Virus record (IMG/VR): IMGVR_UViG_3300042879_003433
Span: 1-21,715 of that record
Strand: one strand, 5' to 3'
DNA: 21,715 nt
Origin: a virus
Shown: one piece after another, positions 1,328-16,896 of the stretch
Position numbering within the stretch: position 1 is the first letter of the stretch
Layout of the letters: each line of letters begins with the position of its first letter
Made by a program: the position numbers and the translations under genes
The notes under the pieces: model-generated
What the model was told of the DNA's origin: nothing
Seen by the model: the letters and a program-made list of their open reading frames with translations, nothing else
Database searches by the model: none

Positions 1328-1536
1328 AGTTCCACTCCAAGAAAGGAAGAAATCCCTGTTCCCGTCAATTGGCACTGCAGACAGGGGGCTGCAGTCGATA
1401 GCGTCATGCGAGCTTGCCGAGGCTCTGGCGGGTTGCCTCCGGATCGGGTATCCACAGCCCCACTGGGTAACTGCCGCGGAGTCCTCACGTGTTGCCAACC
1501 GGGTGGCATTCTGCCGGGTGTCCGGCCCGGCAAAGT

Positions 1537-1605
1537 TCATTGTGCAAAGAATGCACCGACCAAAAGAATCACGATTGCCAAAGCTGCCGCTGCTGCTGGT
1601 TCCAT
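1537..1605 (-). CDS. Membrane micropeptide, 22 aa
   Basis: A very short frame opens at ATG 1605 exactly 6 nt after AAGGAGG, one of the strongest ribosome-binding sites in the window. The peptide starts MEPAAAAALAIV and continues ILLVGAFFAQ, which is an almost pure transmembrane helix with one acidic residue near the N-terminus and no loops. Its TGA overlaps an in-frame ATG of the next frame (ATGA). It could be a real small membrane protein or a leader peptide whose translation controls the downstream 90-aa gene. A GCAAGGTGC motif lies 27 nt upstream of the ATG. The strong ribosome site combined with a clean hydrophobic helix is the case for it; the length alone would not support a call. Confidence 0.5.
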   Translation of the reverse strand: MEPAAAAALAIVILLVGAFFAQ

Positions 1606-1632
1606 TGTCCGCCTCCTTGCTTGTCGTGGCCT

Positions 1633-1641
1633 GCACCTTGC
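1633..1641 (-). promoter_or_regulatory. GCAAGGTGC motif upstream of the micropeptide
   Basis: This is one of four exact minus-strand copies of GCAAGGTGC in the left 3 kb. It ends 27 nt before ATG 1605. The other copies precede the 165-aa gene (2824-2832) and the ParB-like gene (235-243 and 256-264). A shared operator, a promoter part or a ribosome standby site are all possible; which one is not shown by the sequence. Confidence 0.4.
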
Positions 1642-1681
1642 GGGCCGATGGTCAGACGATAACCGGAGACTGTTGCGGAAG

Positions 1682-2005
1682 TCAAGAGGGATCGGCCGGA
1701 TTTTTGGAATCGGTCCAGTCTGCACCGGTGGCCGCGTCTGCGTCTGCAACAGACTGCGCGTACTCCGCCGCGCCTTCCAGCGCTCCGGCATGATAGGCTT
1801 CCAGTTTCGCCTTCATGCTCTCGGACCAGCCATCTTGGTTGGCCTCAGCGTCTTCGTCAAACAGCCGGACAACGCCACAGACACCCACATCGTTAATCAG
1901 CCAGCTATCCCAGCCACCATCCGGCGTGCCGCTGTCGCCGGAGTCCCAGCACTGCGCCCTGGCGTCCGTGTGTCCCATTTCGCGGATTTGTTCGATTGTC
2001 TTCAT
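1682..2005 (-). CDS. Acidic hypothetical protein, 107 aa
   Basis: Two in-frame ATGs lie at 2011 and 2005. The GGAG site is only 2 nt from the first but 8 nt from the second, so I chose 2005, giving MKTIEQIREMGHTDARAQCW. The protein is strongly acidic: a Gly/Asp/Trp-rich segment (DSGDSGTPDGGWDSWL), a beta segment (VGVCGVVRLFDEDAEANQDGW), and a helical, Ala-rich and acidic C-terminus (LEAYHAGALEGAAEYAQSVA). No domain is recognised. The high negative charge and small size would suit a DNA-mimic or an inhibitor of a host DNA-binding protein, but that is speculation. It follows the 60-aa zinc-binding gene and precedes the micropeptide, all on the same strand. Confidence 0.65.
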   Translation of the reverse strand: MKTIEQIREMGHTDARAQCWDSGDSGTPDGGWDSWLINDVGVCGVVRLFDEDAEANQDGWSESMKAKLEAYHAGALEGAAEYAQSVADADAATGADWTDSKNPADPS

Positions 2006-2031
2006 CGCCATCACTCCAAAAAATCGTGAAA

Positions 2032-2051
2032 GAAAAACCCAGGCCGGTGTC
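2032..2051 (-). repeat. Degenerate copy of the terminator 3' half
   Basis: On the minus strand this reads GACACCGGCCTGGGTTTTTC, beginning within the stop codon of the 60-aa zinc-binding gene. It closely matches the loop and 3' arm of the intrinsic terminator at 2247-2272 (GAGACCGGCCCGGGG then TTTTTC). The left arm of a hairpin is missing here, so it probably terminates poorly. The two copies flank the 60-aa gene. Confidence 0.4.
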
Positions 2052-2232
2052 AATCCGCGTCCGCATTTTTCTGCCGCTCGCCCCTGCCGCCGCAACGGTC
2101 GCAGGGGTCGCTGGCGTACATGTGATCCACATCGATGCGGAAATCGTCTAGCCTTCCCGGGCCGTTGCATTTGTCGCACAGCAGATATCCGAGGTGGTCG
2201 ACCACCTTGCCGCTGTAGTCTGGCTTTCGCAT
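2050..2232 (-). CDS. DnaJ-type CxxC zinc-binding small protein, 60 aa
   Basis: The start at ATG 2232 lies 9 nt after AGGAG. The product contains two cysteine pairs, LLCDKCNGPGRL and DPCDRCGGRGER, spaced about 23 residues apart. The second has the exact C-x2-C-x-G-x-G form of the DnaJ/HSP40 zinc-finger repeat, and the first is a near copy. Together they can coordinate one zinc ion. Phages and bacteria encode many such stand-alone zinc modules; no activity can be assigned. The gene starts directly after an intrinsic terminator whose U-tract runs into the ribosome site, and its stop touches a degenerate copy of that terminator. It therefore looks like a self-contained cassette. No membrane segment or signal peptide is present. 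Confidence 0.65.
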   Translation of the reverse strand: MRKPDYSGKVVDHLGYLLCDKCNGPGRLDDFRIDVDHMYASDPCDRCGGRGERQKNADAD

Positions 2233-2246
2233 GTGTGCTACTCCTG

Positions 2247-2272
2247 AAAAACCCCGGGCCGGTCTCCCGGGG
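2247..2272 (-). terminator. Intrinsic (rho-independent) terminator
   Basis: On the minus strand, CCCCGGG, the loop AGACCGG and CCCGGGG are followed by TTTTT. This is a perfect 7-bp GC stem with a 7-nt loop and a U-tract. It lies 18 bases past the stop of the 165-aa gene. The U-tract is followed at once by CAGGAG, the ribosome site of the next gene, so read-through or attenuation could set expression of the downstream genes. Confidence 0.85.
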
Positions 2273-2290
2273 CTGGCCCTGTGACCACTG

Positions 2291-2788
2291 TCAGACGAGC
2301 GGAGCAAACCCCTGTGCTGTCCAGCGGGTAACGTCTTTGGGGTCTCCCAGTTCCACTACAACCGCCCAGTCTCCATTATGCCACATCCAGCTTGTAGCAG
2401 CCGGTCGCCCAGTCTTGTGATAAACCAGCCGTGCCAATCGGCGGTAATCGTCCGCCTGAAACCCCTCGTGCTCCGTCTGCATCTTGTGCACCATCCGAAA
2501 GCGGATGCGAGCGTTTTCCTGCCTGATTTCCTGCTCTGCCCAATAGTCAGCATTTTCCGCCAAGCTTTTGATTTTGCGGGCATTGCGGCTGCTGCCAAAA
2601 ATGTTCTTTGATGCACACACGCAACCAATTTCCAACACGTCCCCAGTGCCGTTGCCGTCAGCGTCTTCCAATTCAATTGCGATCGCTCGCTCAAGAACTC
2701 CGTTTCCGCAGCAGTCGCATGGGCGAGACGCTTCAACAGTTCCGCGGATTTTGCAGTTTTGGCCTTTGTAAGTCAGTCGTGTCTTCAT
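2291..2788 (-). CDS. Cys-rich putative zinc-binding protein, 165 aa
   Basis: The start at ATG 2788 follows AAGGGG by 8 nt. The N-terminal 60 residues form a beta-rich module with two cysteine pairs: RPCDCCGNGVLERAIAIEL and then EIGCVCASKNIFG. 'C-x2-CG ... L.R.. ... G..CA.K' is a pattern seen in small phage and bacterial proteins that bind zinc with a split site. A helical, Arg/Glu-rich middle follows (SRNARKIKSLAENADYWAEQ, ENARIRFRMVHKMQ). The C-terminus is aromatic (SWMWHNGDWAVVVELGDP). No catalytic motif is seen. It is the first gene of the left minus-strand arm, with a GCAAGGTGC motif 35 nt upstream and an intrinsic terminator just downstream, so it may form its own transcription unit. Confidence 0.75.
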   Translation of the reverse strand: MKTRLTYKGQNCKIRGTVEASRPCDCCGNGVLERAIAIELEDADGNGTGDVLEIGCVCASKNIFGSSRNARKIKSLAENADYWAEQEIRQENARIRFRMVHKMQTEHEGFQADDYRRLARLVYHKTGRPAATSWMWHNGDWAVVVELGDPKDVTRWTAQGFAPLV

Positions 2789-3208
2789 CTCTCAGCCCCT
2801 TGCTTTTCGTTGTCCTGTCTTCCGCACCTTGCGTCCGACGGGTGAATCTTAGCTGATTATCGTTCTGTGTCCAGTCTGCTCTTCAGAGAATCTGAAGGAT
2901 TTTCGGAATTCGCGGGAAACACGGGGTCCGCCAACGTGCTCCCGGTACTCCTGCACGGCGAGGATTATTCTCATGCGTCTCTCGGTTGAAAAAGTGCGGA
3001 AGTCCGGATTTTTGCGCGCATCGCCCAGCGCCGGCAGCATAAGTAATACCGGGAATCCTCGAAGATTCTTCGTCACCAGCCGCTCATTCCGGGTAGCTCT
3101 CCAAATAGACACCGCTGACAAATTGCTGACAAATCGCTGAAACGGCGATGAAACGGTCGTCGCTTGTGATCCGTTTCGCGTAGCTCTTCAGATAAGGAGC
3201 ATCATCAC
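2789..3208. promoter_or_regulatory. Divergent control region, rich in repeats
   Basis: This 420-bp stretch separates the leftward 165-aa gene from the rightward 87-aa gene, so promoters for both probably lie here. It holds a GCAAGGTGC motif (2824-2832) and two palindromes: CTTCAGA-GAA-TCTGAAG (2881-2897) and CGAAGA-T-TCTTCG (3060-3072). It also holds four tandem 11-bp units (3114-3157), a GAAACGG/CCGTTTC hairpin (3150-3156/3171-3177) and a 15-bp direct repeat (3093-3107 and 3180-3194). I could not find a convincing sigma-70 promoter on either strand. A TTG-started minus frame covering 2849-3121 exists but lacks a good ribosome site and begins inside the repeats, so it is not called as a gene. 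Confidence 0.45.
3114..3157 (+). repeat. Four tandem 11-bp units (iteron- or operator-like)
   Basis: The units are GCTGACAAATT, GCTGACAAATC, GCTGAAACGGC and GATGAAACGGT, head to tail with no spacers. The first two differ by one base, and the last two share GAAACGG. An 11-bp period places each unit on the same face of the helix, as expected for a protein that binds cooperatively. They end 51 bp before the start codon of the plus-strand gene. Confidence 0.6.
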
Positions 3209-3472
3209 ATGGGAAACCTCGAAGGCTTTGACGCCCGAATTCACGACGCCATTTTGTCCCGCGAACTAGACATTGCCCACGCCAAAGCCATCGACGCCAT
3301 TTTGGATGGCGGCGAGGAAGTCGCCGCCGCAATCAATCACGCACTGGAGGACATGTGTAAAAAGTCATCCGGAGCAATCCAGACGATCTCGCTGTTCGCC
3401 CGCCTCGGCTTCCTTTACACGCTCCACAGCGGAATCATGCCCGGTATGAGCATAGGAGATCCGGAAGAGTAG
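3209..3472 (+). CDS. Hypothetical helical protein, 87 aa (only plus-strand gene)
   Basis: The start at ATG 3209 lies 10 nt after AAGGAG. The product is mainly helical: EGFDARIHDAILSRELDIAH, then AKAIDAILDGGEEVAAAINHAL, a single Cys in EDMCKK, a hydrophobic stretch (AIQTISLFARLGFLYTLHSG) and a short acidic tail. The hydrophobic stretch is amphipathic and not a clear membrane span. No family is recognised. It is the only gene transcribed rightward, it follows a repeat-rich control region, and it faces the end of the structural operon across two hairpins. That placement suits a regulator or an independently expressed accessory (moron) gene. This is inference from context only. Confidence 0.7.
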   Translation: MGNLEGFDARIHDAILSRELDIAHAKAIDAILDGGEEVAAAINHALEDMCKKSSGAIQTISLFARLGFLYTLHSGIMPGMSIGDPEE

Positions 3473-3473
3473 C

Positions 3474-3511
3474 CGCCACAAATCGTGTGGCGTCGCCACA
3501 AATCGCGTGGT
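3474..3511. repeat. Two tandem 20-bp hairpin repeats between convergent genes
   Basis: GCCACAAATCGTGTGGC (3475-3491) is a 6-bp stem with a 5-nt loop, extended to 7 bp by C3474-G3492. It is repeated after exactly 20 bp as GCCACAAATCGCGTGG (3495-3510), whose stem has one mismatch. The pair fills the 41-bp gap between the ends of the rightward 87-aa gene and the leftward structural operon. Neither strand has a U-tract, so it is either a non-canonical bidirectional terminator or an RNA-stabilising 3' end. Confidence 0.55.
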
Positions 3512-3513
3512 GG

Positions 3514-3687
3514 TCAGTCCACCGCCGCCACGTCCCACGCCCGCGGATCTGCAGCCCGCTCGTTTTCCGCCACCATCGCCGCCGCCTCGCCCTGCAGGCG
3601 CTGCAGTTCTGCAGACTCAACAGCCATCACCTGCGAGAGCATGACAGCCAAGCTTACGACGATCGACACCACAGCCAGTTCGCTCAT
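3514..3687 (-). CDS. Small single-pass membrane protein with coiled-coil tail, 57 aa
   Basis: The ATG at 3687 overlaps the TGA of the methyltransferase gene (ATGA), which is the main reason to call it. The N-terminal hydrophobic helix, LAVVSIVVSLAVMLSQVMAV, is followed by a charged helical segment (SAELQRLQGEAAAMVAENER) and ends RAWDVAAVD. The design, a membrane anchor plus a short coiled coil, is like phage i-spanins or holin-type proteins in miniature. At 57 aa it is short for an i-spanin and no o-spanin partner is seen. It is the last gene of the structural operon. Existence is moderately supported; function is open. It could also anchor the preceding enzymes to the membrane. Confidence 0.6.
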   Translation of the reverse strand: MSELAVVSIVVSLAVMLSQVMAVESAELQRLQGEAAAMVAENERAADPRAWDVAAVD

Positions 3688-4244
3688 TTTCGCACCCACC
3701 AAATCCGGGTATTCGCCGCCACCTGATGCCGCCCGCCAAACTGCCGCTGTACAGCGTCCATCACGCCAGGATCTGCGGACCAATAGTCGTGCCCGCACAG
3801 CGTACCACCCTCGCGAAGCAGCGGCCACCAAGCCTGACAGTCGGCCATCACCTCCGCCGCGTTGTGGTTGCCGTCCACAAAAACGCTGTCCACCTGCCCC
3901 GCCAATCCCTGCTGCATCAGTTGCCGCGCCACATCGACGCTGTACGTCTCCAGCAGCTCCACCCGTGCCAATGTCAGGTCGTGAATCATTTGGATCGTGA
4001 GTTGGCGCACGCCCTGCACCCACGGGACCGGGATGGCGTGCCCCTCGTTTGCGTCTACCGCAATCACCCGCGCCGGCTGCTGCAGCCCCGCGCACGTCGC
4101 CCAAAGACTCCGCCCGCAAAACGTGCCCACCTCAACGTGCACGCGGCTCTGTGCCAGTTGGTAACACAGCCAGCCTAATTCCGTCGGCCACATTTCGCCG
4201 GGAATGCGGTATGCAATCCCCATTGCTGTCCCGTGGTCTACCAT
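3684..4244 (-). CDS. Class I SAM-dependent methyltransferase, 186 aa
   Basis: This is predicted to transfer a methyl group from S-adenosylmethionine to an unknown acceptor. Motif I is VHVEVGTFCGRS (about residues 36-46), the ribose-binding acidic residue is in VIAVD (D64), the motif IV region is VDSVFVDGNHNAAEV (118-132), and motif V/VI is LLREGGTLCGHDYW. 'VFVDGnH...v..D...W..LL..GG...GHDY' is the pattern of the Methyltransf_24-type group, often found in glycan and small-molecule modification loci rather than in DNA methylases. No DNA-methylase catalytic motif (NPPY, DPPY or PCQ) is present. GGAGG lies 10 nt upstream of ATG 4244; a TTG at 4250 is the alternative start. The gene overlaps the phosphoribosyltransferase-HAD gene by 7 nt and is coupled to the downstream membrane protein, so the three are probably made together. 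Confidence 0.85.
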   Translation of the reverse strand: MVDHGTAMGIAYRIPGEMWPTELGWLCYQLAQSRVHVEVGTFCGRSLWATCAGLQQPARVIAVDANEGHAIPVPWVQGVRQLTIQMIHDLTLARVELLETYSVDVARQLMQQGLAGQVDSVFVDGNHNAAEVMADCQAWWPLLREGGTLCGHDYWSADPGVMDAVQRQFGGRHQVAANTRIWWVRK

Positions 4245-5635
4245 TTGCAATGAACCTCCGCAGTGTGTGGGCAGACAGTCATCTGCCCTGTCCGCTCGTG
4301 TATCAGCCTCGCCTGCCGTGGGTCACTTTCCACGAACATCAACGGCGCCGGTCGCGGTCGATGGACTTTCGCCCACGCCCCAAAGTGCTGAGCCTTGTAA
4401 TCGGCCATACTGTGCCGCTCCCGCTCCCGCGTCGTTGCTGCCGGGTGCATCACCAGCCTCTGCCATTGCACGCCGTGCCGCCTCAGCCAGTCCTCTGTCT
4501 CCGCTCTGTAGCGTTCCACGCGTGCCGTGACGATCAGCGGGACAGGGGCTTTGCGTGGCAGGTAGAGCGGGCGAGCGTTGCGGATGAAATCCAGATAGCG
4601 CGGCCCATCGTCGTCCTGTTCTCGGCTCGGATCGTGGCAGAGAACGCCGTCGAAATCCAGAGCCATGTTGGGTGACAGCACCGAATTGAAAATGTTCCAC
4701 TCCAGCATGTGCGGCCACTTCAGTTCAGCGTGCCACATGTCCGGCTTCAGGTTTGCCGCTGGGTTGCAATAAATCGCCGCCGTGACAGCGTTCCAGCCTC
4801 GCATGATCGGCAACACCTGGCGAAACGAATTGCCCGTCATGCAGGTATCATCGACGATCAACACCTTTCCCTGCGGCCGAATGTGTGACGAACCGCCCAG
4901 CCGCCACCCATTGCCCGCCTCAATCACGTCGTTCAGGGTTTGCCTGATTGCCAACAGCGGAAGGTGCAAGTACATGGAAAGCATCGTCGCTGCTGACAGC
5001 CCAGAACGTGCCACGCCTGCGATAGCCGTGATGTCGTTCGGGACTTTGCTGGCGAAGGCTTTCACGTCGTTCGCAAACTGCGCGGCCGTGATCCATCTGG
5101 GGTAGTCGCTGCCCATGGCAAACGCCCCGCGGTTGCGGTGCCTGCGTGGCTTGCTGGGAAGCGTTCGCTGCGGTTGCGTTCGCCGTTGCCCTGCCGGTTT
5201 TCGTTCGGCATACTTGCGCCCTCGCGTGCGCGGGATCTGCTGCGGCTCCGGCGTTGTTTCGACGGCTTCAATGATCCATTCTTTCACCTTCGATTCCACC
5301 AGCCCCGGAGCAATAGCACAACCCCACCGCTGCCACCATGCCCGCGCGTGCAACTGTGCGCGGCTGCGAATGCGGTAGGCAAGCGCGTCGATCTGTGCCA
5401 GCACCTGCTCGCGGGTCATCACATTCAATTCGTTGATTTCGTTCGTGCATCCGGTGCAGTCGGTTTGTTCGCCTGTCTCGCGGCTGATGATGCGAGCCAG
5501 TGCGTCGCCGTAGCCGGTGCGGCGAGCACGTCGCGGCCGTCGCGGCTCCTTCGCCGTCCGCAGTCCTTCGCTGACTCGTCGGCCGAATTCAGTTCCTGCG
5601 TCTATTTCGCGCTGCCACAATGCTGGAATTTTCAT
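4238..5635 (-). CDS. Fusion: C-x2-C phage domain + phosphoribosyltransferase + HAD phosphatase, 465 aa
   Basis: The start at ATG 5635 overlaps the upstream stop as ATGA. Three parts can be seen. Residues 1-130 contain GYGDALARIISRETGEQ and the DCTGCTNEINELN motif (C60, C63), like the 'GLGD...C.GC..R...LN' segment of many short phage proteins. A basic, low-complexity linker spans about 130-172. Residues 173-310 are a type I phosphoribosyltransferase, with GVARSGLSAATMLSMYL and the PRPP-binding loop KVLIVDDTCMTGNSF (257-271). Residues 322-460 are a HAD hydrolase, with motif I MALDFDGVLCHD (D327, D329), motif II LIVTAR (T370), a likely motif III lysine in ADYKAQHF, and an acidic FVESDPRQA (436-444). 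The substrate is unknown. There is no stop across the linker, but an internal ATG at 5116 could also make a stand-alone enzyme. Coupled distal-tail and methyltransferase genes flank it. Confidence 0.85.
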   Translation of the reverse strand: MKIPALWQREIDAGTEFGRRVSEGLRTAKEPRRPRRARRTGYGDALARIISRETGEQTDCTGCTNEINELNVMTREQVLAQIDALAYRIRSRAQLHARAWWQRWGCAIAPGLVESKVKEWIIEAVETTPEPQQIPRTRGRKYAERKPAGQRRTQPQRTLPSKPRRHRNRGAFAMGSDYPRWITAAQFANDVKAFASKVPNDITAIAGVARSGLSAATMLSMYLHLPLLAIRQTLNDVIEAGNGWRLGGSSHIRPQGKVLIVDDTCMTGNSFRQVLPIMRGWNAVTAAIYCNPAANLKPDMWHAELKWPHMLEWNIFNSVLSPNMALDFDGVLCHDPSREQDDDGPRYLDFIRNARPLYLPRKAPVPLIVTARVERYRAETEDWLRRHGVQWQRLVMHPAATTRERERHSMADYKAQHFGAWAKVHRPRPAPLMFVESDPRQARLIHERTGQMTVCPHTAEVHCKW

Positions 5636-6219
5636 GGCGTTTCGTAAATCTCCGCGCAAACGACGTATGAAGGCGGTTCAATAGGCATGAAGTTTTCGTC
5701 AAGACAGCCCACAAAACATCCGCCAAACTCTGGCCAGCAAACTGACAACAAAAAAGGGTCACACATACTGGCGTCAGCCTCAACTCCCAGCAATTGCGCG
5801 GGGCAAATCGTGCCATTCACGCCAACCAAACTGACGCCAAAACGACGCAAACCAGAACAACACAAACGAATAAACAGCGTCCATGGATACGCCGCGCCAT
5901 TGCAGTCTATGCAACTGCCTGAAATGTTACCCTCCCAGCATTCTTGGCCACCGCTCAGTGTTGTTTTGAATGTGATAGTCCCTGTGCCGTTGAAACAGGT
6001 GGTGTTTCCGTATGTTGGCGTTGCTGTCAAATCAACTGTGAGTGACGCTGGCAAAGGGTTAGCGCAAGCGTCGTTTGGAACTTCAGTCAAAACGCCGTCA
6101 ATGAGACGAACAACAAACGGAACGCAGCGATTGTCACAGCAGAATTCACCTGTGCAGCAGCAGTCCTCTACCGCCTTTTTCTTCCGCCCCCCTGTGATTT
6201 CGCCAAAGCCCGCCACCAT
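5632..6219 (-). CDS. Cysteine-rich distal tail-region protein, 195 aa
   Basis: The ATG at 6219 overlaps the upstream TGA by one base (TGATG), which I prefer over a GTG three codons earlier. Nineteen of 195 residues are cysteine. The N-terminus is KKKAVEDCCCTGEFCCDNRC. Later pairs or singles occur at GSCIDCNG, RLCCSG, SVCWPEF and GGCFVGC. Between them are beta-rich, Thr/Gly-rich segments (SLTVDLTATPTYGNTTCF, GTITFKTTLSGGQECWEG). This looks like a disulfide- or metal-stabilised beta structure. No signal peptide is present. It sits after the hub-like protein and a second Cys-rich protein, where siphoviruses put baseplate and receptor-binding genes, so a tail-tip role is a reasonable inference. 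No known family is recognised. Confidence 0.75.
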   Translation of the reverse strand: MVAGFGEITGGRKKKAVEDCCCTGEFCCDNRCVPFVVRLIDGVLTEVPNDACANPLPASLTVDLTATPTYGNTTCFNGTGTITFKTTLSGGQECWEGNISGSCIDCNGAAYPWTLFIRLCCSGLRRFGVSLVGVNGTICPAQLLGVEADASMCDPFLLSVCWPEFGGCFVGCLDENFMPIEPPSYVVCAEIYETP

Positions 6220-6758
6220 CAGTAGCACTCATCCTGCCAAACCTCACACAGCGTTCCCTCAATCAACAGGAAATCGCAGCGCGTCTGAATCACTTCGCCG
6301 TTGCAGCATTCCCAGTCCGTCACCGGGACGCGAAGCATTTCGTATTCCGCCGAAATGATAGCGTAGAGCTGCTCGCCTGTCTGCTGGTCTTTGTGGATCG
6401 GCAACAGCCGCACGTGCCCGCCGTCTTTGATCTTCAACGTTCTCGCGTCGTGAGCGTAGACGAACTCCCCGAGACCAACCGGCCGGTCTCGCACGGCCTC
6501 ATATGCCAGCACAGCCTCGCATTCGTCCTGCTGGTCATATTCGGTCGGGGCGAATTCGGCGCACGTGTCGCAGTCCACGTCGGCGTATTGATCCGGAGGC
6601 GAGTTGAGAAACCGAGCCAGTTCGACGCGATACCAGCCGCCGCCCAGGCATTCGGTGCACAGGCCCTCTTTGAGGTTCGCCGGTGCGCCACCGCCAGCGA
6701 AGAGCAACTTGTACTGCCGCCGATCGGTGCGAACTGTCTTCGGAAGTTTTAGCGTCAT
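6219..6758 (-). CDS. Cysteine-rich tail-region protein, 179 aa
   Basis: The ATG at 6758 overlaps the stop of the hub-like gene as ATGA. The product has ten cysteines, many in pairs: GLCTECLGGGW, DVDCDTCAEF, WECCNGEV and a C-terminal CEVWQDECY. The middle is a compact beta region (VGLGEFVYAHDARTLKIKDG, GHVRLLPIHKDQQTGEQLYA). The first cysteine motif, C-x2-CLGGGWYRV, resembles a zinc knuckle. It is translated between the large hub-like protein and the 19-cysteine protein, and the three probably form the distal tail. I do not recognise a family. A host-surface or baseplate role is inferred from position only. Confidence 0.75.
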   Translation of the reverse strand: MTLKLPKTVRTDRRQYKLLFAGGGAPANLKEGLCTECLGGGWYRVELARFLNSPPDQYADVDCDTCAEFAPTEYDQQDECEAVLAYEAVRDRPVGLGEFVYAHDARTLKIKDGGHVRLLPIHKDQQTGEQLYAIISAEYEMLRVPVTDWECCNGEVIQTRCDFLLIEGTLCEVWQDECY

Positions 6759-8848: not shown

Positions 8849-9219
8849 GTCAGTTTTCCTCTGCAGTTCCACCCGTTGATTCCTGAGCCATCCAACCACG
8901 GATCCTCTTCAGGAGTGAAGCCCATGAAAATTGAGTTGCTGAAGGTTTTGATATCGCTTCCGACAGTATACGTGACTGTGCCAAATTCGCCAATCTGAGC
9001 GTTCATTGTTTCAATGGCGCCTTGGATTAGATTGTGCGAAGTGTAACCCACGAACTGCATCCATGCCGCAAATTCACGGCCGTGCAATCGGCCGAACAAG
9101 TGATATTCACCAGTCACTCCGAACCACGTTTGAATGCTGCGTGATTCGTTCCACGGCTGCGGAAGAATTGTGCCGTGCAGGTTGCTGCCGGTGGTCATCG
9201 TTGCCATCGCGATTGTCAT
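8827..9219 (-). CDS. Hypothetical tail protein, 130 aa
   Basis: The ATG at 9219 overlaps the stop of the tape measure gene (ATGA). The product is a beta-rich protein with several aromatic motifs: QTWFGVTGEYHLFGRLHGRE in the first half, and in the second half GTVTYTVGSDIKTFSNSIF, MGFTPEEDPWLDGSGINGW and a closing LTWRQIKT. Small beta proteins just after the tape measure are often distal tail (Dit-like) or tail-tip adaptor proteins. That position is the only evidence for such a role here, because no recognisable Dit motif is present. The 'GFTP..DPWLDGSG.NGW' segment is distinctive enough to serve as a family search handle. Confidence 0.7.
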   Translation of the reverse strand: MTIAMATMTTGSNLHGTILPQPWNESRSIQTWFGVTGEYHLFGRLHGREFAAWMQFVGYTSHNLIQGAIETMNAQIGEFGTVTYTVGSDIKTFSNSIFMGFTPEEDPWLDGSGINGWNCRGKLTWRQIKT

Positions 9220-10934
9220 GGTGCTGTCGCCGCGGGAAGCGGCGCCTCCTTCGGTCGCATGGGTGGCGCCTGTACTTTCATGGGCTGCTGACGAGCCGCG
9301 GCCATTTCATCCCTAATTTGCTGCAACAATGCTATCTGCTGTTCAACAATAGCGCGGTCCTGATCGGACAAGTTTCCGCCAATCGGTATTGCACCAAACA
9401 AACGCCGCTGTTGTAGAGTTTCCTGTAATCCCGCTATGCCAATTTCAGGAGCCGAAAGCCCTTGTGCTTCGGCTAGTCGCATCCTGTTTCTGACGGTAAA
9501 AGCAGTGTCAAAATCAATCCCGCTTAGATTGATTCTTCCAAGTGTATCATTGACAATTTTTTCGACTTGCCCAGCAACTCCTCGCTCTCCAGTGATATCA
9601 CCCACTGCTAACGCAGCCTGTGATTTTGCCTCGGCTCTTGATAATGCGGTTTGATTACTCACCTCTGCCGCCAAGTTCTGAAATTCCTGCTGCCCACCCT
9701 GCGCCCCGGTTATTAGTTCTGCCGAGCGCTTTTCGAGATCCAGTGTAGACTGTTCGCCCATCACCAACTGACGAATCGCCACCTTTCCTTCGCTGTTTTC
9801 AATGGTGCTGAGAAACTGCCGAGCCAATGCCGGATCCGCTCGCATGGCGTTCAAACGCTCGTCGAGTGTGCCCAGTTGATTAAATGCGTCGATCTGCTGC
9901 TTCGTCAGTTTCTGGACTGTTCCGTCGTCCAGTTTCATTTCTTTTTGGGCGACGAATGCGTCCATCTTTTGCACCATTTGCCGCAACGCTGTTCCGGTCA
10001 CAGCCATTCGCGGGTCTTGCAAAATCTGCGACATTGTGGAAGCCAGTTCCAGCGTCCGCTCGCTACCCAGTGCTGCAATCCGTTCGCCTCGCGTGTTTGC
10101 GGCAGCCAATGCCGTACTCATGTTATTGATTGAAGTCGCCAAATCTTCTCCACGGGCTGCCGCTTGGAATTGCGACAACTGCCCAAGCGTCGCCTGAAAA
10201 TCCCGCTGTCCTGTTGCCCCAGCGATTGACAACATACCAGACATAATGGGAGCCGCTTTTGCAGCATCTCCGGCGGTCACTTTCAGAACATCGGCGGAAA
10301 GTTTAATGGCTTCATCGAGGTCTTGTGCGCCGCCGGAAATCGCTGAAGATATCAAATTTGCCAAACCTTCTGGACTTACGCCTAACTCTGGCGCTCGTTC
10401 AATGATTTGCCTGCGTGCCTCTGGTACGTTTGCAGCACCTATGTTCAATGCCATTGCTGCGATTGCTTGCTCAAATGTTCGCGTCTGCTCTGCCGACTGC
10501 GCTCGCAACTGCGCCACTTTTTCAAGTTCACTGGTGATTGCAGTAACGACGGCCTGCAGTGTGACCATCCCGGCCACCATGTTTTTGATTTGCCCGACAC
10601 CTGCTGACAACGTTTGGCCAAACCCGCCGGCAGCACCCTGAATGCTGCCTTTCGCCTGCTTAAGTGAATCCCGCAGCGCGTCCACTTTTTTCTTCTGTGC
10701 GGCGAAGGCGTCTGTGCCCGCGGCCATGCCCTTCAATGCGGCTTCGGCCTGTTTTAGTTCCTGTTCAAGCGCGTTGAACGAACCGGCTGCCGCCTCAGCG
10801 TTTTTCTTCGATGTCGTGGTCAGTTTTTCGAGCTGCCTTTCCTGCTTGTCAAATTTGCCCTCAAGACGGTCCAGGACCTGAACCATCTTGTTGGCTGTCG
10901 CTATCCACTCAACCTCAATCCGCTCGTCAGCCAT
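9216..10934 (-). CDS. Tail tape measure protein, 572 aa
   Basis: This protein sets tail length and is thought to be ejected with the DNA. The ATG at 10934 overlaps the upstream stop by 8 nt. Residues 1-95 form a coiled coil (VLDRLEGKFDKQERQLEKL, SFNALEQELKQAEAALKGM, KKKVDALRDSLKQA). This is followed by a Gly/Ala-rich hydrophobic region (GAAGGFGQTLSAGVGQIKNM, VAGMVTLQAVVTAITSELEK) and a long Ala/Gln-rich helical domain. The C-terminus is a coiled coil plus a Pro-rich tail. The phrase LISSAISGGAQDLDEAIKLS resembles tape measure core segments. At roughly 1.5 angstrom per residue, 572 residues would predict a tail of about 85 nm, short for a siphovirus. No lysozyme or peptidase motif is seen. Confidence 0.85.
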   Translation of the reverse strand: MADERIEVEWIATANKMVQVLDRLEGKFDKQERQLEKLTTTSKKNAEAAAGSFNALEQELKQAEAALKGMAAGTDAFAAQKKKVDALRDSLKQAKGSIQGAAGGFGQTLSAGVGQIKNMVAGMVTLQAVVTAITSELEKVAQLRAQSAEQTRTFEQAIAAMALNIGAANVPEARRQIIERAPELGVSPEGLANLISSAISGGAQDLDEAIKLSADVLKVTAGDAAKAAPIMSGMLSIAGATGQRDFQATLGQLSQFQAAARGEDLATSINNMSTALAAANTRGERIAALGSERTLELASTMSQILQDPRMAVTGTALRQMVQKMDAFVAQKEMKLDDGTVQKLTKQQIDAFNQLGTLDERLNAMRADPALARQFLSTIENSEGKVAIRQLVMGEQSTLDLEKRSAELITGAQGGQQEFQNLAAEVSNQTALSRAEAKSQAALAVGDITGERGVAGQVEKIVNDTLGRINLSGIDFDTAFTVRNRMRLAEAQGLSAPEIGIAGLQETLQQRRLFGAIPIGGNLSDQDRAIVEQQIALLQQIRDEMAAARQQPMKVQAPPMRPKEAPLPAATAP

Positions 10935-14679: not shown

Positions 14680-16896
14680 TTACGCTTCACCCTTGTGCTT
14701 CTGGATGCCGCGGTGGTTCATCGCCTTTGCGGCAAAGGTCTGCAGGACGTAGTATTCCATGGACAACTTTTCTTCGTCCATGTAACTGCGAACCAGCGGA
14801 TTTTCCTGTCCCTGCAGGAAGGTCACTTCGATGGTGTCGATGGTGCTTGGGTCTGCGAAGAGATACCAAGCAAGAGTGCTGTTTGCGTCGAGGATTGGCT
14901 CGACAACCGGAATCATCGTGCGAGCTGGATTGTAAACCAGCGTGTTGACCGAGCTGTTCGGGTCATACGCTGAGTTCACCAACTGCAAGGCCACGGTTTC
15001 GAGAGCAGACGGAACAACGAGGTAGCGCGGCTGCAGGTTCAGGATGTCGTCGGACTCTGCACCTTCGGGCGTGTTTTCACCTCGCATCTGTCGCATGAGA
15101 TTGGTGAGCGTTCCCAGCGTCGTCACCGATGGAGCGCCGGTGCCGGTCGTGTAGTTGCTGCGCTTGCGTGCACCACTTACGGCCGAGAACAACGAAACGC
15201 CATCGCTCAACGTCGGGTTGCTGGTGAGCTGTGCCCACGCCACGGCGTTCACCGTGCGGGCTGCGGCTGCACCGAGCATTACTGGCGTGCGGGTCAGGGC
15301 GTCCATGTCGTCGTTCACAAGCAACTTGTAGGAGAACGACACGCCGAGCGAACGGGATTCAACGGCGTAGGATTCGCGGGCGTCTGCGAAACTTGCCTTG
15401 TTCGGCTCGCTGGTGTCATTCCAAATTGGAAGGTTTGGAATGGCGCCCATGCGGAGGCGGTTGATCTGCTTGAAGTCGGCGACACTGGTGCCCTGTCGCA
15501 TCGGACCACGCCAGGTGCTGGGGGCTTCGGTATAGCCAACCATCATGGACTTGTTGATGGCGTCCATTGTGAGGTTAGCAAAACTGCCGGTCGTGTGATA
15601 CGGGCCGTCGGATCGCACGCCGGACAAATGTTTGGTGCCGAACATTGCGGCAATCGCAATATCCTCGCGAGTCAAGCCAATGGTCCGCACGCCCAGATGC
15701 TGAAGCAGCGTTTCAGCCAATTGAAATGGCGTCGCGTGGCGAAACTGCTTGTCATCAAATCGCATCTGCTCTTCGGTGAGATGTCGAGCCATTCGCGATG
15801 AATCATTGCCAACAGCAGACATAACACTGCGGCGAGCAAGTGTATTGATAATGTCTGTCTGCAGTCGCTGGAATCCATTGGCCATGTATCGAACGGAGGC
15901 ACCATGCGGAATCGTTGCTGCAAACTCGGCTTTGCGTGCGGCAAGGTGGGTGCGAACGGCGGCAATGTCGGCAAGGTTGCGGGCTGCGTCGAATTCGTGC
16001 GGCATATCTGCAAGTTCGCAGAGACTGCGGACTTCAGTTTCGAATGCGGTACGGGCGGCGCGTTCGTTTGCCAATGTGCGGGCGGTGGCTTCGGCTGCCA
16101 GCCGGGCGATGTCGTCGGCAGTCAGTGCGGCAGGCGGTGCCTGTCGCTGTTCGGGCGGTGCCCCCGGTGCAGGTGCAGCCGGTGCAGCCATGCGTTCGGA
16201 GTTGGCGACGATCCAAGCCTGAGCCTGTTCGTCGTTCAGTTCGGCGGGCATCCCACGGGACACCAACAGAGCACGGAGTTGTTCGTTCACAGTAAAATCT
16301 CCTTCAGGGGAATGAATGAAACGGCAACGAGCCGGGTCGAGCCCCCGGAGTTTTGCCTGATCGTCTGCACCAATCGGAGTAAGCGAAACCTCGCGGAGTC
16401 GCCACTTTGTCACCACGTTCACCGGGCCTTCGTATTCGCGCCCGCCGATGGTTTTCTTTTTGCCCTTTTCGATGTACGTTCGCTTGAGGACTTCGTAGCC
16501 CACAGATACGTCGGTAACGTGCCCGTCACGAACGGCCGCCAATGCTTCCTCGCCCTGCCGGGCCTTCGAAAACATCAGCGTCGCGGTAACGCGGCCATCG
16601 CCCACCGTGATATTTCGAGCGCTGCCCAGTTGGTCCGTTACGCTGCTGCGGCGGTGTGAGTCGAGGAATGGGATCTGCCGAGACTTCGGGAATTCAACGC
16701 CGCTGGAAAGCAGGATCTCGGGAACGTAGTCCATGCGTTCCCAGTCGACCATAAGAACGGGTTGCTCTGTACTGATAACGGCCTCAACCGTGCGGCCTTC
16801 TTCATTGAAGGTCTTCGCCCGCAGTTCGATCTCAGACCGGAAGCCCGGGCTGATAGCGTTTCCGCTGGCAAGTGTTTCGCTATGTCGTTTGGGCAT
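14680..16896 (-). CDS. Prohead protease / major capsid protein fusion, 738 aa
   Basis: A protease and the capsid subunit are made as one chain. Residues 20-190 are an HK97-type (S78/U35-like) prohead protease: FRSEIELRAKTFNEEGRTVE, PFLDSHRRSSVTDQLG with H81, GHVTDVSVGYEV with S131, and WRLREVSLTPIGAD with E169, which together match the proposed His-Ser-Glu active site. Residues 235-260 are an Ala/Pro linker. Residues 260-330 are helical (ADDIARLAAEATARTLANER) and probably act as the scaffold (delta) part. From about 340 to the end is an HK97-fold capsid protein, with NLPIWNDTSEPNKASFADAR, SLGVSFSYKLLVNDDMDAL and PRYLVVPSALETVALQLV. Self-cleavage should release the capsid part. Protease-capsid fusions are known in tailed phages. 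ATG 16896 overlaps the portal gene by 17 nt. Confidence 0.9.
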   Translation of the reverse strand: MPKRHSETLASGNAISPGFRSEIELRAKTFNEEGRTVEAVISTEQPVLMVDWERMDYVPEILLSSGVEFPKSRQIPFLDSHRRSSVTDQLGSARNITVGDGRVTATLMFSKARQGEEALAAVRDGHVTDVSVGYEVLKRTYIEKGKKKTIGGREYEGPVNVVTKWRLREVSLTPIGADDQAKLRGLDPARCRFIHSPEGDFTVNEQLRALLVSRGMPAELNDEQAQAWIVANSERMAAPAAPAPGAPPEQRQAPPAALTADDIARLAAEATARTLANERAARTAFETEVRSLCELADMPHEFDAARNLADIAAVRTHLAARKAEFAATIPHGASVRYMANGFQRLQTDIINTLARRSVMSAVGNDSSRMARHLTEEQMRFDDKQFRHATPFQLAETLLQHLGVRTIGLTREDIAIAAMFGTKHLSGVRSDGPYHTTGSFANLTMDAINKSMMVGYTEAPSTWRGPMRQGTSVADFKQINRLRMGAIPNLPIWNDTSEPNKASFADARESYAVESRSLGVSFSYKLLVNDDMDALTRTPVMLGAAAARTVNAVAWAQLTSNPTLSDGVSLFSAVSGARKRSNYTTGTGAPSVTTLGTLTNLMRQMRGENTPEGAESDDILNLQPRYLVVPSALETVALQLVNSAYDPNSSVNTLVYNPARTMIPVVEPILDANSTLAWYLFADPSTIDTIEVTFLQGQENPLVRSYMDEEKLSMEYYVLQTFAAKAMNHRGIQKHKGEA

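Follow-up and report, generated by a model that had tools for sequence, protein, structure and literature searches.

The window, which is the entire 21,715-base IMG/VR virus record and may itself be a fragment, so that partner genes could lie beyond it, encodes a protein of 465 residues in which a Cys-bearing N-terminus, a type I phosphoribosyltransferase (PRTase) and a HAD phosphatase are joined in one chain. We propose that this PRTase-HAD protein is probably a phage-encoded, PRPP-dependent two-step ribofuranosyltransferase. The type I PRTase would transfer ribofuranose-5-phosphate from PRPP to a hydroxyl group of a glycan or other acceptor with release of pyrophosphate, and the PNKP-like HAD domain would next remove the 5'-phosphate to leave a ribosyl residue. 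This residue could then be extended, or O-methylated by the product of an overlapping methyltransferase gene, and the N-terminal Cys module probably recruits or positions the ribosyltransferase. Two-step ribofuranosylation fits the domain pair, the conservation of motifs and the glycan contexts of homologues; the order of the reactions and the transfer of ribose to a sugar are inferred.

The PRTase-HAD gene (positions 4238–5635, minus strand) begins with an ATG at 5635 and runs without an internal stop, in keeping with an earlier note on this DNA, and the same unbroken frame is found in contigs L002 (94% identical) and L003 (58% identical). Measured against L009, dN/dS is roughly 0.09 in the N-terminal region, 0.03 in the PRTase and 0.05 in the HAD part; the gene is under purifying selection. 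These values in all three regions, together with the synteny of L002 and L003, rule out a sequencing artefact or a normally split pair of genes; the earlier note had regarded the two together as fatal to the fusion.

In the AlphaFold2 model of the protein, built on 61 relatives (mean pLDDT 84.8), blocks with pLDDT above 90 extend across most of the PRTase-HAD part. A helical N-terminal region (residues 42–128, positions 5252–5512; pLDDT mostly 80–95, with a dip around residues 91–110) is followed by an Arg/Pro-rich linker (residues 129–175, positions 5111–5251) that is mostly disordered, with pLDDT below 60 across most of its length. The type I PRTase domain occupies residues 176–320 (positions 4676–5110): PF00156 matches residues 187–316 with 29.1 bits, above the Pfam gathering cut-off of 26.3 (E 7e-7), and the predicted fold is matched best by HGXPRT (5bqp; Z 16.3, 132 residues, 2.5 Å). 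Matches to NCBIfam PRTase models were all sub-threshold. The pyrophosphate loop, GVARSG, is located at residues 207–212 (positions 5000–5017), and the PRPP-binding loop, KVLIVDDTCMTGNSF, at residues 257–271 (positions 4823–4867).

The PNKP-like HAD phosphatase domain (residues 322–465, positions 4241–4672) is matched weakly by sequence models (HAD_SAK_2, E 0.015; phrog_415 polynucleotide kinase, E 5e-6) and clearly by structure, to the 3'-phosphatase of T4 Pnkp (5uj0; Z 12.3, 123 residues, 2.7 Å). Four HAD motifs are in place: motif I, LDFDGVLCHD (residues 326–335, positions 4631–4660), with the DxDG signature, the nucleophile Asp327 and the acid/base Asp329; motif II, LIVTAR (residues 367–372, positions 4520–4537), with Thr370; the motif III lysine, Lys414 (positions 4394–4396); and the acidic motif IV, FVESDPRQ (residues 434–441, positions 4313–4336). 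Ser211, Gly212, Asp263, Gly268, Asp327, Asp329, Thr370, Arg372, Lys414, Glu436 and Ser437 are invariant in all 61 aligned phage and cellular members. Because these residues are invariant and dN/dS is low, both enzyme domains are strongly constrained within one chain. The three-part architecture with intact PRPP loop and HAD motifs described in the earlier note is borne out by PF00156, the structural matches and the AlphaFold2 model; the loss of the PRPP loop or the DxD motif in close relatives, which it had named as a counter-argument, is not seen among the 61 members, where Asp263, Gly268, Asp327 and Asp329 are all retained.

The gene is closely packed among its neighbors. Upstream, it shares an ATGA junction with a Cys-rich orphan ORF (positions 5632–6228, minus strand) that has no significant family match in Pfam or PHROGs; downstream, it overlaps by 13 bases a gene for a SAM-dependent methyltransferase (positions 3684–4250, minus strand; Methyltransf_24, E 9e-18) resembling CmcI and rhamnosyl O-methyltransferases, which is likely to be a partner of the PRTase-HAD protein. 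Because of the junction and the overlap, the gene appears to be translationally coupled within a run of phage structural genes: terminase, portal, a protease-capsid fusion and tape measure. The tape measure gene (positions 9216–10934, minus strand; phrog_167, E 2e-5) places it in a tail operon, as had been claimed from the sequence. No glycosyltransferase was recognized in the window, where the methyltransferase is the only sugar-linked neighbor of the PRTase-HAD gene.

Other features of the window deserve mention in their own right. Two Cys-rich orphan ORFs (positions 5632–6758) separate the PRTase-HAD gene from a large tail gene, and the one adjoining the PRTase-HAD gene differs strongly from its counterpart in L002 despite 97% identity of the PRTase-HAD part. 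A single 738-residue ORF (positions 14680–16896) comprises the head maturation protease and the major capsid protein (phrog_4523), and an 85-residue ORF (positions 2050–2307) has a CxxCxGxG zinc-finger signature like that of DnaJ, with a Pfam score under the cut-off.

Homologues were collected with a profile of the PRTase-HAD part; since the search relies on short patterns, the counts are lower bounds. The fusion occurs in at least 87 viral contigs (80 kept, L009–L088) and at least 489 genome contigs (80 kept, L089–L168), the latter recovered by the profile scan where a single-sequence scan of the genomes gave no match, and also on plasmids of Alphaproteobacteria. Minimal members have about 300–340 residues. 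Dozens of uncultivated viral contigs have the combination of Cys module, PRTase and HAD, and several viral loci lie close to tape measure genes (PHROGs); to call the combination new, and unexpected in a tail cluster, as the earlier note had done, was too strong. INPHARED phage records, however, gave no match at E 1e-3 and hence no cultured phage to serve as a model.

A tree of 134 PRTase-HAD members, whose deep branches have 91% SH-aLRT support and are not starred, places the window gene in a lineage of 60 rows that is largely viral and whose few genome contigs (9 rows) are all Planctomycetota. A second lineage holds most other bacteria, one archaeon and a few viral rows. As judged from this tree, the phage members are set largely apart in the first of these lineages. 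One member of that lineage, L094, comes from the cultured planctomycete Thalassoglobus neptunius KOR42, on a contig of 3 Mb with portal and capsid-like genes upstream, which points to a prophage and a possible laboratory model. Based on the exclusively planctomycete genome contigs, this prophage and a tape measure gene in L092, the host of the window phage is likely to be a member of the Planctomycetota; our literature search on planctomycete prophages found nothing on point. Three planctomycete contigs (L092, L093 and L098) encode two tandem PRTase-HAD units per chain, the tape measure gene of L092 lying upstream.

Cellular homologues lie in loci for capsule, O-antigen and exopolysaccharide, and some are themselves fused to glycan enzymes. 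A domain scan of ten multi-domain cellular homologues identified chains with an added GT2 domain (L102, L136 and L139, weakly L162), GT4 (L125 and L127), GT2 and Capsule_synth (L109), FkbM methyltransferase (L096 and L122, weakly L125) or another methyltransferase (L133). Neighbor genes were called by a simple longest-ORF scheme, and their counts are descriptive. Among 135 neighbors at 25 cellular loci, 20 belong to Glycos_transf_2 and 11–12 are of GT4 type, with O-antigen ligase, LicD, RgpF and Wzt also present. The plasmid homologues lie within exopolysaccharide or LPS clusters, those of L007 and L008 being judged from ORFs by eye. On the Rhizobium plasmids L004 (5875–15489) and L005 (5760–16783), the PRTase-HAD gene is flanked by the gene of a caspase-family protein on one side and that of a glycosyltransferase on the other, and T6SS-type genes come next (VgrG in L004, DUF6484 and DUF4150 in L005).

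At 19 viral loci (144 neighbors) the top family is Methyltransf_24, with 9 matches, the family of the overlapping gene in the window, followed by CTP_transf_3 (6) and sulfotransferase (2). The CTP_transf_3 matches cover just about 40–50 residues where inspected, and were set aside as a sign of CMP-sugars. Viral chains also carry added domains: a SAM methyltransferase in L072, L076, L077 and L081, GT4 in L078 and a weakly GT8-like domain in L189. L078 groups with the cellular lineage, and hence may be host DNA. In the Planctomycetota contigs L101 and L126, the phage-lineage PRTase-HAD genes adjoin giant multi-glycosyltransferase ORFs (positions 1450–4977 and 2104–6441, respectively). These associations leave a comparison with nucleoside-like pathways of Ter systems, drawn in the earlier note, unsupported: homologues adjoin and are fused to glycosyltransferases, families of the TerD/TerY type are absent from the ten window proteins (Pfam) and from the top neighbor families listed, and a literature search on Ter-type PRTase-HAD systems found nothing on point.

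The N-terminus offers a further link to glycan enzymes. An N-terminal extension with a CxC or CxxC pair is present at about 59 of 80 viral loci (hand count); cellular-lineage members usually start directly at the PRTase. In the window protein, the C-x2-C module (residues 40–73, positions 5417–5518; GYGDALARII...CTGC...LN) has the pattern of a stand-alone phage module, GLGD...CGGC, as the earlier note had recognized, but a profile of 54 stand-alone members matches it with an i-Evalue of only 0.29. The module is unmistakable at the same place in relatives sharing the C-terminal part (L036, E 5e-25; L041, E 7e-20) and clear in L034, and the window segment resembles a degenerate copy of it. L002 has an extra Cys module (CNC...C) that is absent from the window protein.

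We searched for three types of module, here called marine, CGGC and planctomycete. Of 40 ORFs with the marine type (CxC...C...WxWC), most continue into PRTase-HAD and five into a long glycosyltransferase-like protein; the two of these five that were scanned, L203 and L204, are GT8-like plus GT4. The CGGC type is mostly stand-alone, and is also joined to PRTase-HAD, to weakly GT4-like proteins (L220 and L235) and to NlpC/P60, the last in a single ORF of L265 (1248–1913) that combines the module with the peptidase domain. The planctomycete type (G-x-ELK...CxC...MD.WG...C) is found alone, joined to PRTase-HAD, or joined to two long ORFs (L312 and L313) which by eye resemble glycosyltransferases and have no Pfam match. 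The Cys modules are exchangeable parts attached to glycan-active enzymes. Since other phage proteins join such modules to glycosyltransferases, the module probably recruits or positions the enzyme.

The acceptor is the most uncertain part of the proposed activity. Given the activity, a glycan of the virion (tail or fibre) is favored, with slightly better than even prospects, and a host surface glycan comes second at roughly half that weight. The virion is favored because of (i) the coupling of the gene within a tail operon, (ii) the cytosolic location of PRPP, (iii) the overlapping O-methyltransferase-like gene and (iv) the lack of a recognizable lipid-carrier, flippase or GT-C gene among the window genes scanned with Pfam and PHROGs. 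The last point and the tail-operon position with its ATGA junction, which is not that of a moron, also speak against the leading alternative, that the same activity acts on host surface polysaccharide, where ribosylation, with or without methylation, would block superinfection or alter the receptor in the manner of O-antigen conversion. The O-antigen, capsule and exopolysaccharide loci of cellular homologues and the phage-lineage member in the Thalassoglobus neptunius prophage are in its favor, and we consider it a serious rival, if rather unlikely as a whole.

A base-like acceptor is possible, because the PRTase fold is closest to HGXPRT/XGPRT and the 61-member alignment shows a nearly invariant Trp-Asn pair toward the end of the PRTase domain. 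A nucleobase or nucleotide enzyme, in which the PRTase would join a purine-like base to the ribose phosphate of PRPP and the HAD domain would dephosphorylate the resulting nucleotide to a nucleoside-like metabolite or modified nucleotide, would also account for best structural matches to 6-oxopurine PRTases (Z 16) and the T4 Pnkp phosphatase (Z 12). Position 266 of the PRPP loop is the site of the catalytic Asp (EDxxDTG) in 6-oxopurine PRTases; it is Met in the window protein and M/A/S/Y/L/N/H/G in 58 of 61 aligned members, and this variability argues against purine salvage. No nucleotide-metabolism genes stood out among the homologue neighbors, glycosyltransferase fusions and neighborhoods recur, and we judge such an enzyme improbable. 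Least likely is DNA or RNA modification or repair, with the HAD domain removing 3'- or 5'-phosphates from the ends of nucleic acids and the PRTase ribosylating a base or end, for example against restriction: the resemblance of the HAD domain to PNKP and HAD_SAK_2 (RNA repair) is outweighed by the tail-operon position, by the polysaccharide loci of the cellular homologues and by a Pfam scan of the window proteins that recognized no DNA hypermodification genes near the PRTase-HAD gene.

Ribofuranosylation of a glycan is the reading we retain. The earlier note had imagined that the phage makes or removes a ribosyl-phosphate group, with either a nucleotide or a surface sugar as its carrier; of the two, the sugar is strongly favored, as an addition followed by dephosphorylation. 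More tentatively, with the odds somewhat against it, we suggest that phages build ribofuranose glycans, possibly O-methylated, on their own tail or virion proteins with PRPP as direct donor, that interchangeable Cys modules bring ribosyltransferases and glycosyltransferases to one shared partner in the virion or its assembly, and that the enzymes are a distinct ribofuranosyltransferase lineage with a canonical type I PRTase at its core. A literature search on phage ribosylation found nothing on point.

The entry of ribofuranose into bacterial glycans was solved only recently, with PRPP-dependent enzymes whose transferase domains are divergent or membrane-bound. The present family, in at least 489 genome and 87 viral contigs, indicates a further widespread and apparently uncharacterized type of ribofuranosyltransferase with a textbook nucleotide-salvage fold, which phages appear to use within tail operons. 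The prediction is that phage virions or host glycans carry ribose, and abundant Cys-rich phage modules are proposed to recruit glycan enzymes.

Compared with known systems, the PRTase domain shares its fold, PRPP loop and pyrophosphate loop with 6-oxopurine PRTases (HGXPRT/XGPRT, e.g., 5bqp, 1vdm and 1a97), but differs in the unconserved catalytic Asp, the fused HAD domain and the glycan loci. The HAD domain shares the fold, DxDG, the motif II Thr and the motif III Lys with the phosphatase domain of T4 Pnkp and Pnkp1, but has Glu-Ser as motif IV, lacks a kinase and is fused to a PRTase. In butirosin biosynthesis, BtrL and BtrP perform PRPP-dependent O-phosphoribosylation and then dephosphorylation on an aminoglycoside acceptor, a two-step O-ribosylation like the one proposed here; they are separate proteins, unlike the single chain studied here.

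In 2022, Kelly et al. reportedly found the gPRT of the Klebsiella dual-domain gPRT-PRP to be strongly divergent from known PRTases. The PRTase-HAD family likewise combines a PRPP-dependent phosphoribosyl-transfer domain, its chemistry here predicted, with a HAD phosphatase in one chain, and its cellular homologues likewise lie in polysaccharide loci, the window itself being a tail operon with a methyltransferase. Unlike gPRT-PRP, its PRTase is compact and canonical type I (Z 16 to HGXPRT), and it occurs also in phages, with Cys modules. The gPRT-PRP enzymes and structures are absent among the Foldseek/VIA and profile matches listed, which is not evidence against a relation of folds. Use of PRPP as donor followed by HAD removal of the 5'-phosphate is established for Klebsiella O-antigens (PMC11127046, PMC11231755), and the same two-step ribofuranosylation with PRPP donor and HAD phosphatase is known for Bcs3 (CriT-CrpP) of the Hib capsule (PMC10299916) and Cj1432 of the Campylobacter capsule (PMC12096443). 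With Bcs3 and Cj1432 the family would share the donor, Ribf-5-P transfer and HAD dephosphorylation, and it shares fusion to further transferases. The domain order differs, HAD then transferase in Bcs3 and PRTase then HAD here, and where CriT has three extra helical bundles around a divergent PRTase-like core (PMC10299916), our model has a contiguous type I PRTase of about 145 residues. By this comparison, the PRTase-HAD family seems to work like gPRT-PRP, and we do not file it as a member of that class.
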